DNA from: an uncultured Bacteroides sp.
Lineage (GTDB): Bacteria; Bacteroidota; Bacteroidia; Bacteroidales; Bacteroidaceae
Reading direction: 5' to 3'
NCBI GenBank assembly: GCA_949294185.1
Contig: CASFGA010000011.1
Span: 1-64,000 of the forward strand
Length of the DNA stretch: 64,000 nucleotides
How positions within the stretch are numbered: position 1 is the first letter of the stretch; every line of letters begins with the position of its first letter. The position numbers and the translations under genes were made by a program. Positions 56,750 to 63,853 of this stretch are shown one piece after another. A model generated the notes under the pieces. That model saw nothing but the letters and a program-made list of their open reading frames with translations. It was not told the origin of the DNA and searched no databases.

Positions 56750-56780
56750 TGTAAAAAGCGTTACAAGCGTTTTTGTTTCG

Positions 56781-56831
56781 GGCACGGGCTGTGCAGTATC
56801 GTCGGATATTGTGCAGTCCGTGCCTGTTTTT
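56781..56831 (+). terminator. First terminator after rnfA
   Basis: GGCACGGGCTGTGCA (56781-56795) pairs with TGTGCAGTCCGTGCC (56810-56824), two G-T pairs, a 14-base loop and then GTTTTTTG nearby. Intrinsic terminator. Confidence 0.8.
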
Positions 56832-56837
56832 TGTGCA

Positions 56838-56879
56838 TGCCAAACAGATTTTTCATGCTGACGGAAAATCTGTTTGGCA
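56838..56879 (+). terminator. Second terminator after rnfA
   Basis: A 15-bp perfect stem (TGCCAAACAGATTTT with AAAATCTGTTTGGCA) with a loop of about 10 bases, followed by TTTTTGTC. It lies only 7 bases after the T run of the first hairpin, giving a double stop. Confidence 0.82.
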
Positions 56880-57167
56880 TTTTTGTCTTGTTTTCTTCCA
56901 TTGCATCTTTCTTTTTGCGTCTGTCCTGAAGCGGGGTTTGGTTTAATTCTCAAATTATATTCTTATTTATAAAAATTATTTTGATTGTATTTAATAATTT
57001 AAATCATTATTGCTATATTTGCCCGGTAACTTTAGGAAAAGTTATGTCTGTGACTTAAAAAAAGTGTCTCGCCGGCGCAAAAAGCTCAAAGTGTGCGGCG
57101 AACAGCTCCACACTTTTGGGATAATTCGCCGTATTGGGAGTTGTTGCGGCAGTTAATGACTTTTGAA
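56880..57167. other. AT-rich leader region of the envelope cluster
   Basis: Very AT-rich (about 56941-57015), then a -7 box TATATTTG at 57014-57021 and a leader of about 140 bases. In the leader, CAAAGTGTG (57087-57095) pairs with CACACTTTTG (57109-57118). GGCGAA (57097-57102) in its loop could instead pair with TTCGCC (57125-57130). No gene is seen. Confidence 0.5.
57014..57021 (+). promoter_or_regulatory. -7 box of the envelope gene cluster
   Basis: TATATTTG, full match to TAnnTTTG, about 147 bases before the first gene. It lies after AT-rich DNA of the kind that often boosts promoters. No clear TTG at 19-21 bases. Confidence 0.5.
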
Positions 57168-57815
57168 ATGAAAAAGAACATTGTATCCGTTGCCCTTTTG
57201 GGCATGACTTTCGCGTTGGCATCTTGCGGGTCGTCGAAGCAGACGGCTGCTTCCGACTATGAGTATCAGCTGTGGAAACAGCAGCAGGAACAGCAGTCCG
57301 CACAGCAGCGTCCGGCACGCAAGCTGCGCGCGGCCGAGCCTTGCATTGAGTTGGCCTCAGCTGAATCTGAGAATCTGAGGGCTTACGGCACGGCCACCTC
57401 TTATATAGAAAAAGTGGCTTGGAACGCAGCGGAGCGGGATGCCCGTAGCAGGCTTACGGCCATGATCAAGACTGCCGTTGAAGGGGCGGCGCAGGATTAT
57501 GAGCGAAATGCCAATCAGAATCTGAAAAATACAGCAGCGACACTTAGTGAGGCAGTCATGACACAATATATGGCCGAAGAAATAAAGAATGCGCCCGTCA
57601 TCGACCACTCTCTTTATGATTTGTCGAACGGACATGTTCAGGTGTATGTATGTCTGGAGATAAAGACCAATACCGAAGAGTTGATGAAGAATCTGGACAA
57701 TGAGTTAGACCGTGACGGCGTGATCGAACTGCAATACGACCGCGATCGTTTTCTTGAAAGGATGTCTGAAGGACTTGAAGAGTATAGGAAGAAACAGGCG
57801 GAGGAAAACCTATGA
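57168..57815 (+). CDS. LPP20-like lipoprotein
   Basis: A 215-residue lipoprotein. The signal peptide ends with lipobox ALASCGSS (Cys20). A Gln-rich linker (LWKQQQEQQSAQQ) follows, then a domain with an AYGTA start and AAERDARSRLTAMI helix resembling the LPP20 fold. It ends in a charged helix EGLEEYRKKQAEEN. Probably outer-membrane-attached on the periplasmic face. Its stop overlaps the next start by 4 bases. The start at 57168 fits the signal peptide; the longer frame from 57093 is rejected. LPP20 assignment is by pattern only. Confidence 0.7.
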   Translation: MKKNIVSVALLGMTFALASCGSSKQTAASDYEYQLWKQQQEQQSAQQRPARKLRAAEPCIELASAESENLRAYGTATSYIEKVAWNAAERDARSRLTAMIKTAVEGAAQDYERNANQNLKNTAATLSEAVMTQYMAEEIKNAPVIDHSLYDLSNGHVQVYVCLEIKTNTEELMKNLDNELDRDGVIELQYDRDRFLERMSEGLEEYRKKQAEENL

Positions 57816-58714
57816 AAATCCGTTTGATATTGTTTCTTCAGCTGACGGCGCTGCTTTGGGGCGTGGAGGCGGCATCGGCGCAGCCCCGTGCCTCGGAGCC
57901 GCTGCGCCCCAGATGGGTTCAAAAGATTCCCAAGCCTACGAACCCCACCTTTACGTATGAAGTGAAATCGGCCTTTGCACCGACGCTCGATGCCGCGCGT
58001 GAGAAGTGTATGGCCGAACTGATAGCAGGGTCGGAAATGAAGAACGGGATGGTAATAGTGTCTGGCTATCAATCAAAGGAGCTTGTGTCGCAAGTATGGA
58101 AGAACGGGAAGCTGACAGAAAGGGTAGACTATGACAGCCATACCACCACGCAGGCGCAGGGAAATGAAGTGAAACTCTATGTGGAAGACATTGCGGAATA
58201 CTGGGAACGTGACAAGTCGGGCGATTATTATCTGACCAAGCTCTATGCAAAGTCGGAATTGGGAAAGGCCCCCTTGTTCGATAATGTGGAGCTGACCACC
58301 CGTTATGGCGCTCGCGGACTGTGGCGGTCGGCCATCATCCCGGGGTGGGGACAGTTCTATAAAGGCTCTAACCTGAAGGGCGGACTGTTTTTGGGCGGCA
58401 CAGCCCTGCTGGCGGGAGGTGTCGTGTTTACGGAGAATCAGCGGTCGGACTACCGCCGGAAGATAATGCGCACGCACGATGTCGGGTTGATAAACAGTTA
58501 TTCCACGAAGGCCGACCATTTTGCCACTGCGCGGAATATCTGTATCGGTGCTGCGGCAGCCCTCTATCTCTATAATCTGATAGATGCCGTGGTGGCTCCG
58601 GGCGCACGGCGCATCGTGGTAAAGAAGCGCAATCCGTTGGTAAAGGATTACGCCGTCGCGCCGTCCGTTTCGCCTGACGGCAGTCCCGTGATGGCGGCCT
58701 CGCTCACTTTCTGA
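57812..58714 (+). CDS. LPP20-like plus DUF5683 membrane protein
   Basis: A 300-residue exported protein. Signal peptide to about residue 23 (ASAQ). Residues ~35-150 resemble the preceding protein's domain: a TFTYEVKSAFA strand, DAAREKCMAELIAG helix and KLYAKSEL strand. The C-terminal ~130 residues form a DUF5683-like module, RSAIIPGWGQFYKG then a glycine-rich hydrophobic hairpin and another membrane segment near residue 250. It links a periplasmic domain to the membrane. It is translationally coupled to the LPP20-like gene, which suggests the two form a complex. Confidence 0.7.
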   Translation: MKIRLILFLQLTALLWGVEAASAQPRASEPLRPRWVQKIPKPTNPTFTYEVKSAFAPTLDAAREKCMAELIAGSEMKNGMVIVSGYQSKELVSQVWKNGKLTERVDYDSHTTTQAQGNEVKLYVEDIAEYWERDKSGDYYLTKLYAKSELGKAPLFDNVELTTRYGARGLWRSAIIPGWGQFYKGSNLKGGLFLGGTALLAGGVVFTENQRSDYRRKIMRTHDVGLINSYSTKADHFATARNICIGAAAALYLYNLIDAVVAPGARRIVVKKRNPLVKDYAVAPSVSPDGSPVMAASLTF

Positions 58715-58746
58715 CAATGTAAGGTTAATCATCAATCATAATATTT

Positions 58747-59604
58747 ATGGAAACGACTTTTGAAATAACTCCGTCTGAGCTTCAGACGAATGAAAAGCTT
58801 ATAAAGCGCGCCCGTTGGTGGATAATTACGGCTTTTGTGTGGGAAATCCTTGTCTCAATGGCTTTCTATATATTACCATATGTGATGGATACGGAACTAT
58901 GGTCTAAATACCATCAATTATTCGGTTGGTGTGCAAATATTATTTTTATATCTTTTACATATTTGGGCTTATGGTCTTTAAGGAAACATACATTTTTGCC
59001 CTTTCGTCAGTTTTCTATCATGCTGTTTATCGCTTTGTGTGGTGATAGGATTTTTATTATTATAAAACGAATTATATTTGATTGGATTCTTCCGACTCCT
59101 TCGGAAGAATATTGGCTTTCTATATGGCCGTTGGTTAATAATCTTTTTGATTTAGTTGTGACACTTTTCTTCGGATATTTATGTTGTGCCGCATATTCTT
59201 TTTTATGTAGAAATAAAGAAATAGAAGCTGTTTATCGTCCGGCTTTTTATTTGTTGTGTATTGCTCTTTTTATTGATAGAATTATAAATGTAATTATAGA
59301 TTCAGAATCAATAGCGCCATGTTTATGGGATTTGTCCTCAATAAATGCTTCATCGCTCTATTTTGATTTTAAAAGTATGTTATATGATGTGTTAAATCCA
59401 TTATATTTTGTGGTATACATCATATTCATCATCGGTTACAAGCGTTTGTTTGCCACCCCGTCGGCATTTCCTGCCAAAGATGACGGCAGTGCGTACATCA
59501 GCATTTGGAAACCGTCGCGGATGACGGCTGGTTTTCTGGTGTCGATGCTTCTGTTTATAGCGTTGCTATACTTCATGGTACGGATTGTATTTTTTCAGCA
59601 ATAA
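58747..59604 (+). CDS. Multi-pass membrane protein, unknown
   Basis: A 285-residue protein with about seven hydrophobic spans (the first near residues 22-45, the last at 260-282) and short loops. A cytoplasmic-looking N-terminus reads ELQTNEKLIKRARW. I do not recognise the family; DUF2975-like proteins have a similar outline but the match is not convincing. Base composition changes sharply within the gene: two sampled lines at 58921 and 59281 have 17/60 and 18/60 G+C, while the line at 59461 has 32/60. Same strand, 32 bases after the DUF5683 gene. Confidence 0.65.
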   Translation: METTFEITPSELQTNEKLIKRARWWIITAFVWEILVSMAFYILPYVMDTELWSKYHQLFGWCANIIFISFTYLGLWSLRKHTFLPFRQFSIMLFIALCGDRIFIIIKRIIFDWILPTPSEEYWLSIWPLVNNLFDLVVTLFFGYLCCAAYSFLCRNKEIEAVYRPAFYLLCIALFIDRIINVIIDSESIAPCLWDLSSINASSLYFDFKSMLYDVLNPLYFVVYIIFIIGYKRLFATPSAFPAKDDGSAYISIWKPSRMTAGFLVSMLLFIALLYFMVRIVFFQQ

Positions 59605-59620
59605 TTAAAAACATCAGATT

Positions 59621-60235
59621 ATGGGAACAATCGTATTGGCGATTCTCGTTTTGATAGCCGGTTACTATTTTCTAAAGAATTTTGAGAAGATAGATCGCCA
59701 CCTGTTCGATTCGGCCGAAGGCTACGAACCCTTTGGCATCGGTGTGGTATATCTCAGTGCCGTGGTGGGAGCCTTCTTCGGCTGCCTGCTTATCTATTGT
59801 GAAATGATAGACAAGAGCATAGAGCCTGTGCCTATTGTGGCCGTGGTATTGACGCTTCTGCTTATGCTCGTCTGTTATAACGTGTTTCAGGCCTTCCTTT
59901 ACATGCACTCTTCGGGCGGCATCTTCGGCAAGTCGCTGTTTATGCTCGTGTCATGCGCGTTTGCCATGCTGGTCGGAGCGGTGGGAAGTGTGGTGGTCAT
60001 CATTCTTGTCATTGCCTTTCTGGTCTTGTCTCTGTTGGGAAAGGCCGCTTTCGGCGACTCTTCATCGTCCGGAGAGCAGCGTTCCTCATCAGACAGCAGT
60101 GAACCCGAATATACGACAGAGGATGAACACGGCAATACACGTACCTTGAAACAGGATGGATGGAATAGGTTTAAAGACGATAGGGGCGATTATTGGAATG
60201 ATAACGGCGACGGAACCGTGAGCCGTGAAGATTAG
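59621..60235 (+). CDS. Membrane protein with acidic tail, unknown
   Basis: A 204-residue protein with four hydrophobic segments (about 2-18, 45-62, 72-95, 108-140). A Ser-rich linker (SSSSGEQRSSSDSS) and a 45-residue polar tail containing TLKQDGWNRFKDDRGDYW and NGDGTVSRED follow. The tail looks like a small folded or metal-binding module. I do not recognise the family. It lies 16 bases after the preceding membrane protein gene and may be its partner. Confidence 0.65.
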   Translation: MGTIVLAILVLIAGYYFLKNFEKIDRHLFDSAEGYEPFGIGVVYLSAVVGAFFGCLLIYCEMIDKSIEPVPIVAVVLTLLLMLVCYNVFQAFLYMHSSGGIFGKSLFMLVSCAFAMLVGAVGSVVVIILVIAFLVLSLLGKAAFGDSSSSGEQRSSSDSSEPEYTTEDEHGNTRTLKQDGWNRFKDDRGDYWNDNGDGTVSRED

Positions 60236-60283
60236 AAACGTTGCAATAAATTATATATGTGTTTTAAAAAAGAAGAAAACGTT

Positions 60284-61396
60284 ATGAAGAAGATTTTATT
60301 TTCAGTTTTTTGTATGATTTTCGGCATATCCATCTGTGGATGTTCGGAGGATGAAACACCCGGATTCGGTTCTATTTATGGAATCGTGACAGATGCCGAA
60401 ACCAGTCAGCCGGTATACGGTGCTTCCGTCATTCTTTCACCCGGCAATCTTTCCACCTTGACGGGGCAGGACGGACATTATGAGTTTGTCGATCTGGAGC
60501 CGGGACAGTATAAGGTGCAGGTTCAGGCCAACGGATATCAGCAGAATGTCCGTCAGATTCAGGTGAATGCAGGCGGCAGCGCGACGGGAGACATGACTCT
60601 TGATCCGGTAAGTGAGTTGTCAAACCTGACACTTTCATCCAACACGCTCGACTTTGATACGGGCTATAACGAGCTGACCCTTACGCTGACCAATACGGGG
60701 AACGCCGGAAACCTGTCGTGGAATGTGAGCGGATTGAACGTTGCGTGGCTTACCATCCAGCCGGCACAGGGTGAAATAGCCATGGGCAAGTCGGCCGAAA
60801 TCAAGGTGCTTATAGACCGCAGCCAGATTACCGCTTCCCAGTCCACCTCCTTCATCATCAATGCAGCCGGAGGCTCGCAGTCTGTCCGGGTGCTGGTAAG
60901 CACACAGGGAGAGAGCGGCGGCAATGAAGGCGGCGATGAAGGGGAAACCGGTGGCGGAGACTACTCGTCGGCCGAGGTTATGTCCTGTGATTCCCGCATC
61001 GAAGCGGCCATCGTCAGCTGCGAACGCTCCGGCTCGGCAGTGGTATTCACCTATACGCTGAAAAATACAGGGCTCGGACTGGTAAACGACTTCCGTATCT
61101 ATCATCCTGAGGCATTGGGTACAAATATCATTGACGGGTCTACCTCCTTGTTCTACGATGCCGAAGGGAATGAATACTCCGACTGCATCATGACATTCCG
61201 TGACGAGTCGGAAAGCGCATACAACATAACGGCCTCTTTCCCTGAGAATATCGCCTGCAAGGGTACGGTAACCATCAAGAACGTGCCTGCGGATGTGGAC
61301 GAGATCAATGTGGCATTGTCCGTGCTTGCTTATCCCAATTCGGAATACAATCTGGCCGGAACGATGATAACGTTTGAAAAAGTCCCCGTTTATTGA
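60284..61396 (+). CDS. Carboxypeptidase-regulatory/BACON-like lipoprotein
   Basis: A 370-residue lipoprotein with lipobox SICGCSED (Cys20). Residues ~27-105 form a carboxypeptidase-regulatory-like beta sandwich: GSIYGIVTDAETSQPVYGASV, YEFVDLEPGQYKVQV. Residues ~110-210 resemble a BACON or choice-of-anchor domain: a TLSSNTLDFD start and a WLTIQPAQGEI block. A Gly/Glu-rich linker and a C-terminal beta domain follow. Such modules mediate surface binding of glycans or proteins. Start at 60284 rather than 60257, because the signal peptide begins there. Confidence 0.75.
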   Translation: MKKILFSVFCMIFGISICGCSEDETPGFGSIYGIVTDAETSQPVYGASVILSPGNLSTLTGQDGHYEFVDLEPGQYKVQVQANGYQQNVRQIQVNAGGSATGDMTLDPVSELSNLTLSSNTLDFDTGYNELTLTLTNTGNAGNLSWNVSGLNVAWLTIQPAQGEIAMGKSAEIKVLIDRSQITASQSTSFIINAAGGSQSVRVLVSTQGESGGNEGGDEGETGGGDYSSAEVMSCDSRIEAAIVSCERSGSAVVFTYTLKNTGLGLVNDFRIYHPEALGTNIIDGSTSLFYDAEGNEYSDCIMTFRDESESAYNITASFPENIACKGTVTIKNVPADVDEINVALSVLAYPNSEYNLAGTMITFEKVPVY

Positions 61397-61408
61397 CAAT
61401 AATCAGTG

Positions 61409-62884
61409 ATGCGTATGAAATGTTTTGCAACTGTTATTTTCTTTTTGTTTTGTTTGGGCAGTCAGTCGGCTGCCCAAACTTTTGAAGACTATAAGCGAAA
61501 GGCAAGAACTGACTTCAGCGACTACAAGCATCGCCGCCGGCAGGAGTTCAAGGAATATCGTGACCGGGTCAACGCCGAGTTTGCAGCATACATGCGCCGG
61601 GCATGGCCGGGGTATAAGGCAGAGCCTGCCAAGCCTGCGCCGCAGCGTCCGGAACCTCCCCGCCCGGAAGTAAGGAAGCCCGATGTGAAGCCTGCTGACA
61701 ATCTTTTGCAGCCGGGCAGGATTACCGCACCCCAGATGCTTCCCGCAGGCCGTCCGCAGCCTGCATACCCTCTGCCCTTGCCGGACGAAGGGCAGGAAGA
61801 AGCTTCATCCTTCAGCTTTCTGTTTTATGGAACTTCGTGTGGACTGCCTTTGGAGGAGAAGCATCGCTTTGCCTTGCGCGGCACGGCGGAGGGGAATGTG
61901 GCGGATGCATGGCAGCGGCTTTCGTCGGATGACTATCTCCCCGTCGTTGCGTCTTGCCTTTCGTGGCGTGACAAGCTGTCTCTCTGCGACTGGGGATATG
62001 TACGTTTCGTGGAACAGATGGCCACGGCCTTTTTTGCAGGCAGCCAGAATGAGGCGCGGCTGATGCAGATGTATGTCCTTACCCAGTCGGGATACAAGGT
62101 GCGTATGGCGCGGGTGGGAAACCGGCTTGTATTGCTGCTCCCCTCGAAAGACGAAATCTATGAATATCCTTACCTTGCCGTGGGCGGAGAGAGGTATTAC
62201 ATCGTCGACCCGTCTGTCCGCGGGGAAACATTCTATCTGTTCGACCGTGAATATCCGAAGGAACGGCAGTTTTCACTGTTCGTCCAGACTGAACCCCTTT
62301 TGGCGGAATCTCTTTCGACGATGCGGACTTTTGCGGCCCGGCGTTATCCGGAGCTGAAGACAGACATAACGGTCAATCGCAATCTGATGAACTTTTACGA
62401 AGACTATCCGCGCGGCAACTCGATGGCCGTCTATGCACAGGCTTCGCTGAGCCGTCATGTGAAAGAGCAGCTTTATCCCGTGCTGCGTCAGGCTCTTTCC
62501 GGAAAGAGTCAGGCGGAAGCCGCAAATGTCCTGATAAACTTCGTACAGACTGCCTTCAGCTACCAGACGGATGAGGAGCAGTTTGGTGAGGAGCGGCCTT
62601 TCTTTCCCGATGAAATATTCTTTCATCCTTACAGCGACTGCGAAGACCGCGCCATTCTTTACACTGTTCTGGTCCGCGACTTGCTTGGCCTCAAGACGGC
62701 ACTGCTGTATTATCCCGGTCATTTGGCCGCGGCTGTCCGTTTCGACGAGGAAGTGACGGGCGATTACATGATGATAGAAGGCGCCCGCTATACGGTTTGC
62801 GACCCGACTTACATCGGGGCCGACATCGGTATGGCCATGCCGCAATACAGGCATGTGGCGGCGGATGTTTTCCGGCTTGAGTGA
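61409..62884 (+). CDS. Secreted transglutaminase-like protein
   Basis: A 491-residue protein with a signal peptide (cleavage after about residue 22, SAAQ). The next ~50 residues have a repeated aromatic-charged pattern with F/Y every 4-5 residues (FEDYKRKA, FSDYKHRR, FKEYRDRV, FAAYMRRA). A Pro-rich linker of ~60 residues follows. The C-terminal two thirds end in a papain-like core with a Cys in SDCEDRA, His in YPGHLAAAV and Asp in VCDPTYIG, the order expected for transglutaminase-like proteases. Probably a periplasmic or surface cysteine peptidase or crosslinker. Last gene of the cluster. Confidence 0.75.
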   Translation: MRMKCFATVIFFLFCLGSQSAAQTFEDYKRKARTDFSDYKHRRRQEFKEYRDRVNAEFAAYMRRAWPGYKAEPAKPAPQRPEPPRPEVRKPDVKPADNLLQPGRITAPQMLPAGRPQPAYPLPLPDEGQEEASSFSFLFYGTSCGLPLEEKHRFALRGTAEGNVADAWQRLSSDDYLPVVASCLSWRDKLSLCDWGYVRFVEQMATAFFAGSQNEARLMQMYVLTQSGYKVRMARVGNRLVLLLPSKDEIYEYPYLAVGGERYYIVDPSVRGETFYLFDREYPKERQFSLFVQTEPLLAESLSTMRTFAARRYPELKTDITVNRNLMNFYEDYPRGNSMAVYAQASLSRHVKEQLYPVLRQALSGKSQAEAANVLINFVQTAFSYQTDEEQFGEERPFFPDEIFFHPYSDCEDRAILYTVLVRDLLGLKTALLYYPGHLAAAVRFDEEVTGDYMMIEGARYTVCDPTYIGADIGMAMPQYRHVAADVFRLE

Positions 62885-62974: not shown

Positions 62975-62982
62975 TATCTTTG
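62975..62982 (+). promoter_or_regulatory. -7 box of the CMD-cupin gene
   Basis: TATCTTTG, full match to TAnnTTTG, 25 bases before the ATG at 63008. It separates this gene from the envelope cluster and argues against the longer frame from 62903. Confidence 0.55.
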
Positions 62983-63007: not shown

Positions 63008-63853
63008 ATGATGAAACCGATTTTTCAAACTGTCAAGACAGGCGTTCTCTTGGGGATGCTTGTTTCTGCACTTAATATTCAAACCGCTATGTCACAAGAA
63101 AAGATTACGCAGACCGCCGGTCGCGTGCAGTTAGGGGAGTTCGCTCCCAAGTTTGCCGAGCTGAATGACGATGTTCTCTTCGGTGAAGTGTGGAACCGTA
63201 AAGGGCTGAGTCCGCACGACCGCAGCATGATAACCGTCGCTGCCCTTGTCGGAAAAGGGATTATCGACTCTTCTCTCACTCATCATCTCCAGTTCGCCAG
63301 ACAGAATGGCGTGACGCGCACCGAGATATCCGAGATGCTGACCCACATTGCCTTCTATGCCGGATGGCCCAATGCATGGGGAGCTTTCCGTCTGGCCAAG
63401 GAAGTATGGGCCGGCGATGCGGAGGGAGATGACGGCAAGACCGCTTTTCAGCGCGAGATGATATTTCCCGTCGGTGAGCCGAATACTGCCTATGCGAAAT
63501 ATTTTACGGGAAACAGTTATCTGGCACGCGTGTCGACCGAGCAGATTCCCTTTTCCAACGTAACGTTTGAGCCTCGCTGCCGCAACAACTGGCATATCCA
63601 TCACGCCACGAAAGGCGGCGGACAGATGTTGGTATGTGTGGCCGGAAAGGGATGGTATCAGGAAGAAGGCGAGCCCGCCGTGCAGATGCTGCCGGGTGAT
63701 GTGGTTCATATTCCCGCCAACGTGAAGCACTGGCACGGTGCCGCCGCCGACAGCTGGTTTGCCCACCTTGCATTCGAGATTCCGGGCGAGGACACTTCGA
63801 ACGAATGGTTTGAGCCGGTCACAGACGAAGCGTATGACAAGCTCGGGAAATAA
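63008..63853 (+). CDS. Secreted carboxymuconolactone decarboxylase-cupin fusion
   Basis: A 281-residue protein with a signal peptide (about 28 residues). Residues ~40-135 are a carboxymuconolactone-decarboxylase-like helical domain: LSPHDRSMITVAALVGKG, THHLQFARQNGVTRTEI and FYAGWPNAW. No CxxC redox pair is present, so it is of the CMD rather than AhpD type. Residues ~165-270 are a cupin: WHIHHATKGGGQMLVCV and PGDVVHIPANVKHWHGA, with histidines for a metal. Such fusions are common in Bacteroidetes, and their substrate is not known. ATG 63011 is an equally possible start. Confidence 0.85.
   Translation: MMKPIFQTVKTGVLLGMLVSALNIQTAMSQEKITQTAGRVQLGEFAPKFAELNDDVLFGEVWNRKGLSPHDRSMITVAALVGKGIIDSSLTHHLQFARQNGVTRTEISEMLTHIAFYAGWPNAWGAFRLAKEVWAGDAEGDDGKTAFQREMIFPVGEPNTAYAKYFTGNSYLARVSTEQIPFSNVTFEPRCRNNWHIHHATKGGGQMLVCVAGKGWYQEEGEPAVQMLPGDVVHIPANVKHWHGAAADSWFAHLAFEIPGEDTSNEWFEPVTDEAYDKLGK

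Follow-up and report, generated by a model that had tools for sequence, protein, structure and literature searches.

Six closely spaced genes lie downstream of an rnf operon in the genome of an uncultured Bacteroides sp. (GenBank assembly GCA_949294185.1), and the question they pose is whether they encode a single machine of the cell envelope, as a sequence-only reading of this DNA had proposed. The window analysed here is the whole 64,000-nucleotide stretch at positions 1 to 64,000 of contig CASFGA010000011.1, and the six open reading frames (ORFs), referred to as g1 to g6, are all on its forward strand at 57168-62884 with inter-gene gaps of -4, 32, 16, 48 and 12 bases, confirming the compact same-strand arrangement with a four-base overlap noted in that reading. 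We find that the cluster represents one form of a modular Bacteroidota envelope cassette, the core of which is an LPP20-type lipoprotein (g1) and a transglutaminase-like (TG) enzyme (g6); a second LPP20-type protein (here g2) and a surface lipoprotein (g5) are the usual additions.

The evidence for the cassette comes from the recurrence of its genes. A genome scan identified 574 relatives of g6, and 80 loci were kept, nearly all of which are in records titled Bacteroidales or Bacteroidia (one is titled Ruminococcus flavefaciens, and is probably a mislabelled metagenome-assembled genome). The gene order seen across 115 loci is a gene of the g1 family (LPP), followed by one encoding DUF5683, DUF4384 or LPP20 plus an unknown region, then the CarboxypepD_reg/BACON/PEGA proteins, and then the TG gene. 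About 30 of these 115 loci, including three duplicates, contain LPP, DUF5683, CarboxypepD_reg/BACON-type and TG genes in one run, such that co-occurrence across the Bacteroidales reaches the four of six genes that the earlier reading had taken to indicate a system; in a congener (L229) the order is the same as in the window core, and B. cellulosilyticus DSM 14838 carries the LPP and TG genes at L153. Among 121 Bacteroidaceae genomes, 49 of the 56 TG genes have a same-strand LPP gene no more than 10 kb away and 44 of 61 LPP genes are near a same-strand TG gene, compared with a chance expectation of 0.3 LPP-TG neighbours; both genes are present in 35 genomes, LPP only in four, TG only in three, and neither in 79. 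Counting same-strand genes only, LPP is 5′ of TG at 45 of the 58 loci where there is room on either side and 3′ of it at four. Other Bacteroidota lineages also have the pair, often as divergent neighbours. LPP and DUF5683 genes with no TG gene within 10 kb were seen at five places (G103:C83, G067:C44, G093:C30, G076:C113 and G072:C9), some of them near contig ends, and others may be TG-free versions.

The remaining two genes encode orphan membrane proteins, g3 (58747..59604) with about seven transmembrane (TM) segments and g4 (59621..60235) with about four and a charged C-terminal tail. In the 121 genomes g4 has zero matches and g3 has no convincing relative, and the proteins encoded in the fetched neighbourhoods include no convincing match to either. 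Three weak matches to g3 in the genomes (E about 1e-4 to 1e-3 over 55-81 residues, all with internal stops) and a lone weak match to g4 among the fetched-locus proteins (E 0.018) were taken as noise, and YfhO was rejected as an assignment for g4, its score being under the cut-off. The GC content of g3 is 35%, compared with 50-56% in its neighbours, and the congener with the same gene order has a different membrane protein in the g3/g4 slot. These two genes are recent, lineage-specific membrane additions and belong to no conserved machine. Because they fail to co-occur with the others, what is conserved is a core of four genes whose parts can be swapped, and the sequence-only reading, of a single six-gene machine, is upheld only in part.

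Horizontal transfer of the cassette is likely, since its distribution in the Bacteroidaceae is patchy and multi-copy (38 of 121 genomes, with up to four copies), the nearest relatives of g1, g2 and g6 are in Alistipes (65, 68 and 58% identity, respectively) and not within the Bacteroidaceae, and an integrase adjoins one such locus (L103). Tyrosine recombinase genes (Phage_int_SAM_5 plus Phage_integrase) are found directly 5′ of the cassette at L103:4960-6171 and L106:3297-4511, which suggests mobility. A plasmid-borne system was considered and rejected, with one partial plasmid match only, to Bacteroides finegoldii; the matching gene is an incomplete TG relative (39.5% identity) that lies where the plasmid record ends (NZ_OY725910.1:99973-101037). 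Some cassette versions include a caspase-like Peptidase_C14 protein (L045, L046, L038, L040 and L060, and also L044, L056 and L058), and in the last three of these a sigma factor resembling the extracytoplasmic function type and a putative anti-sigma factor are encoded between the caspase and LPP. At L052, L063, L064 and L227 an LPP20-domain protein of about 440 residues is encoded 5′ of LPP and TG, with a DUF6175 protein at L064 and extra proteins at L227 that by eye resemble SPFH and GYF types.

The enzyme of the core, g6 (61409..62884), is predicted to be periplasmic. Although the Pfam Transglut_core model scores under its cut-off (15.5 versus 23 bits), a structural model (predicted local distance difference test score, pLDDT, of 93.5) and its fold matches sustain the transglutaminase-like assignment that had been read from the sequence. 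The best match to the C-terminal domain is LapG (Z 10.5 over 136 residues), and others at Z 8 and up include TglA, peptide N-glycanase and transglutaminases, in agreement with a papain/transglutaminase fold. Across 72 proteins the residues of the triad are conserved and in order, Cys411 and His438 in all 72 and Asp465 in 71. The two halves of g6 align in register (p 1.6e-4) and the first lacks the catalytic cysteine, so that g6 is, according to the model, a tandem TG fold with one live Cys-His-Asp site in the catalytic domain (62411..62881, residues 335-491) and one degenerate domain (61796..62278, about residues 130-290) that has no cysteine aligned with Cys411. Two extra cysteines are near-invariant, at residues 183 (61955-61957; 71/72) and 464 (62798-62800; 70/72), and could form a disulphide.

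LapG of Pseudomonas and Legionella is like g6 in its periplasmic location, its catalytic fold and its Cys-His-Asp triad, whereas g6 has in addition the degenerate TG-like domain, a proline-rich linker, an N-terminal hendecad helix and LPP20 lipoprotein neighbours. Curated LapG/BTLCP models match neither g6 and its 71 relatives (Pfam) nor g6 (NCBIfam), and neither LapD nor a LapA-type adhesin is linked to it as far as the recurrent neighbours that carry named domains show. PeiW, a pseudomurein endo-isopeptidase acting on cell-wall peptide cross-links, is matched at Z 7.6 over 111 residues, a value that can be reached by common arrangements. It is, like g6, a cysteine peptidase of related fold, but it is an archaeal-virus enzyme that has neither the helix nor lipoprotein partners.

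The N-terminus of mature g6 is a fourfold 11-residue aromatic repeat of the form [FY]xx[FY]x7 (61475..61606, residues 23-66; copies FEDYKRKARTD, FSDYKHRRRQE, FKEYRDRVNAE and FAAYMRRAW) that ends in an invariant Trp66 and is modelled as a single helix over residues 25-62. Over the 72 proteins there are 338 Phe/Tyr pairs at a lag of 11, versus 55 in shuffles (z 44). The phylum search also matched non-TG proteins through the helix part alone, and these carriers are MltC-type lytic transglycosylases (SLT plus Mltc_N) and one M23 endopeptidase. The TG and MltC helix profiles score 40 against each other, where column shuffles reach 9.4 ± 1.8 and a reversed control 24.6, so periodicity accounts for part of this score but not for all of it. 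The helix is missing from four of the TG relatives examined (L264-L267), and none of these has an LPP neighbour. In the fetched stretch around the M23 endopeptidase with its N-terminal aromatic helix (L259:7547-8380) there is no TG or LPP gene nearby.

A connection to the cell wall is also seen in gene neighbourhoods. In four distant genomes (L252-L255) the TG gene lies beside an operon that encodes, in this order, the peptidoglycan-synthase regulator LpoB, then a tetratricopeptide repeat lipoprotein, LPP20, LPP and MltC; LpoB was identified by family search in L252 and L254 (PF13036, 3e-33), and L253 and L255 have the same layout. This operon resembles the window cluster in having the same LPP family and an adjoining TG gene, and its MltC helix is related to that of g6; the window cluster differs in having DUF5683 and a surface lipoprotein in place of LpoB and MltC. 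LPP is also close to TG in L257, L263 and L271, and in a sample of 395 genomes from the phylum full-length TG is present in 14 of 15 Mltc_N genomes versus 8 of 380 others, a comparison that ignores phylogeny. A comparable case is Helicobacter, where the gene for an LpoB homologue is in synteny with that of an envelope lipoprotein for which interaction with peptidoglycan hydrolases has been reported (PMC11394524). The cell-wall substrate, one of the options in the sequence-only reading, gains in likelihood from the helix shared with MltC and M23 and from the LpoB-MltC neighbourhood, and is still best regarded as a presumption.

What would such an enzyme be placed upon? The LPP20 label that the earlier reading had given to g1 (57168..57815), an LPP20/FlgP-like lipoprotein, is a mixed case: its own sequence does not reach the Pfam cut-off for PF02169 (LPP20), which gave no match, and only 2 of 41 family members match that model at E<0.01, whereas the family profile matches Campylobacter jejuni FlgP (9hmf_C) at E 2.1e-5 over 174 of 214 positions and a homologue in a distant Bacteroidota genome (L252) is above the LPP20 cut-off (34.4 versus 25.9 bits). 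The match of the family profile to Helicobacter pylori Lpp20 (5ok8) is weak (E 0.18). The second gene, g2 (57812..58714), encodes an exported LPP20-like domain fused to a DUF5683 TM hairpin; the relationship of this domain to g1 holds (profile-profile E 3.5e-7), as does the DUF5683 assignment (PF18935; 39.1 bits against a cut-off of 26.7), which extends to 18 of 30 g2 relatives. The N-terminal domain of g2 is modelled as beta-alpha-long hairpin-beta-beta, the SHS2 order of elements. FlgP, the basal-disk lipoprotein of C. jejuni (9hmf), has the same order, and its hairpin builds the ring (PMC12222027); the modelled g2 domain has a similar long beta-hairpin insert. In contrast to FlgP and Lpp20, no flagellar genes were seen at the fetched cassette loci, and the likeness is known here from profiles and a model.

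The lipoprotein g5 (60284..61396) carries CarboxypepD_reg and BACON_2 domains, both recognized by Pfam, and the BACON-like character given to it earlier is therefore correct. In the Bacteroidota, acidic residues directly after the lipidated cysteine constitute a surface-export signal (PMC5080379). The mean number of acidic residues at +2 to +6 is 0.03 for LPP members with a clear lipobox versus 1.29 for the CarboxypepD_reg/BACON/PEGA group (p 1.6e-10), and in the window the lipobox is followed by CGSSKQ in g1, which lacks the acidic signal, and by CSEDET in g5. By this rule g1 is predicted to face the periplasm and g5 to be exposed at the surface, a sidedness that we infer from these residues.

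The cluster is set off from its surroundings. Two strong terminators (stem-loop plus T-run; 56779-56826 and 56837-56880, forward strand) lie 3′ of rnfA and close the rnf operon, isolating the cluster from it. The -7 box that had been noted ahead of the cluster is present as a Bacteroides-type sequence, TATATTTGC, at 57014..57022 on the forward strand 5′ of g1, and is a candidate promoter; because TAnnTTTGC has 23 matches in the window versus 11.9 expected, a single box is weak evidence by itself. A second box, TATCTTTGC, stands at 62975 ahead of the gene that follows the cluster (cupin/CMD, with its ATG at 63011). The start of g1 was moved to the ATG at 57168 (MKKNIVSV...LASC), replacing a GTG at 57093, and that of g5 to the ATG at 60284. 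A shared insertion site 3′ of rnfA was considered and rejected: the genes there differ among the congeners examined, and a single ancestral site is therefore not established. A second RnfE/RnfA-like gene pair in the genome (G000:C4:258809-260052; 33-46% identical) is probably part of an Nqr complex.

The interpretation that we favour, with a likelihood just short of even, is that the cassette serves as a cell-wall remodelling module, its LPP20-type lipoproteins providing both docking and control for periplasmic hydrolases. An SHS2-type scaffold would be formed by the membrane-anchored g2 together with g1, which would lie on the inner leaflet of the outer membrane, and g6 would dock on this scaffold through the aromatic hendecad helix at its N-terminus. 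The dead first TG domain and the proline-rich linker would place the live domain, which may cleave (or transfer) a peptide or isopeptide bond, either within peptidoglycan or where a protein is joined to it, and this local remodelling of the wall could go along with the building of the surface or outer-membrane part that the operon encodes. The linkage of the genes, the triad, the predicted fold, the repeat, the helix in common with MltC and M23 and the LpoB-MltC setting are observed, whereas docking on LPP20 proteins, the substrate, cleavage in preference to cross-linking and the sidedness at the membrane are our inferences. Several points weigh against this interpretation. The closest fold, that of LapG, belongs to an enzyme that cuts an adhesin, and peptidoglycan is a presumed substrate for g6. 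LpoB is absent from the window cluster, and Mltc_N is unmatched in its genome. The helix shared with MltC is periodic, and the score relating the two is partly a product of that periodicity, as the reversed control indicates. The SHS2 assignment of g1 and g2 draws on sequence profiles and a modelled topology, and the structure search with g2 was led by its helical hairpin, the best matches being proteins with coiled coils or helical hairpins, whose scores are those of a common arrangement. Finally, the genome-level co-occurrence tests ignore phylogeny.

The principal alternative, which we consider rather unlikely, is LapG-like processing, in which a periplasmic TG protease cuts, releases or matures a co-encoded surface or outer-membrane protein, such as the CarboxypepD_reg/BACON/fn3/Lcl_C lipoproteins or PEGA-barrel proteins. 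LapG is the top fold match, and adhesin-like domains (fn3, Lcl_C, BACON, and PEGA with an outer-membrane protein barrel) are present in the co-encoded proteins; however, the CarboxypepD_reg/BACON/PEGA group is variable and absent at many TG loci, while LPP is nearly constant, no LapD-like partner is seen among named domains, and the g6 helix is shared with peptidoglycan hydrolases. A further alternative is that g6 is a true transglutaminase that cross-links envelope proteins, for example a lipoprotein to a peptidoglycan-bound protein. Its fold and triad match eukaryotic transglutaminases and TglA of Streptococcus pyogenes (Z 8-8.9), but likeness of fold cannot tell transfer from hydrolysis, the LapG-type proteases match better, and no Gln/Lys donor-acceptor partner is identified, so we regard cross-linking as quite improbable and suspect that g6 cleaves.

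The distribution of the cassette invites other explanations. Its patchy occurrence in multiple copies, the Alistipes relatives and adjoining integrase, the caspase-like proteases, sigma/anti-sigma genes or DUF6175 proteins of some versions, and the orphan proteins in a variable slot would all suit a transferable system of envelope defence or competition, responding to conflict or stress. We think this unlikely, as no toxin-immunity pairing is seen and the LpoB/MltC-linked versions resemble cell-wall housekeeping; the reading as a defence system was rejected, all six proteins matching zero PADLOC families. That the six genes merely adjoin after the rnf operon with no common function is very improbable. 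The orphan status of g3 and g4, the deviating base composition of g3 and the differing genes 3′ of rnfA in the congeners examined are what chance neighbours would leave, but recurrence of the four-gene core and of the LPP-TG pair throughout the phylum greatly exceeds chance, which refutes this explanation for the core; g3 and g4 fall outside that refutation.

Returning to the cell-wall remodelling module, we also put forward, more tentatively, a general version of it: the aromatic hendecad helix, with several copies of [FY]xx[FY]x7, may be a hitherto undescribed docking signal that recruits unrelated wall hydrolases (MltC, an M23 endopeptidase and the tandem TG-like peptidase) to LPP20-type outer-membrane scaffolds, and the cassette would be a modular form of this arrangement, open to transfer, in which local opening of the wall is coupled to the assembly of a surface or outer-membrane protein. 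The parts belong to known families. Neither their combination nor the shared helix turned up in the open-licence literature searched, in which no paper treats LPP20, transglutaminase and Bacteroides together and DUF5683 is named only in work on nematode G-protein-coupled receptors. LPP20-type lipoproteins are widespread and mostly have no known role outside flagella, and little work has been done on the peptidoglycan hydrolases of the Bacteroidota or on their regulators. The cassette, which occurs in hundreds of genomes of gut Bacteroidales, ties such a lipoprotein to a cysteine enzyme and gives each a concrete partner that can be tested; should the helix prove to be a docking module, it would provide a simple sequence signature for wall hydrolases that respond to the outer membrane.

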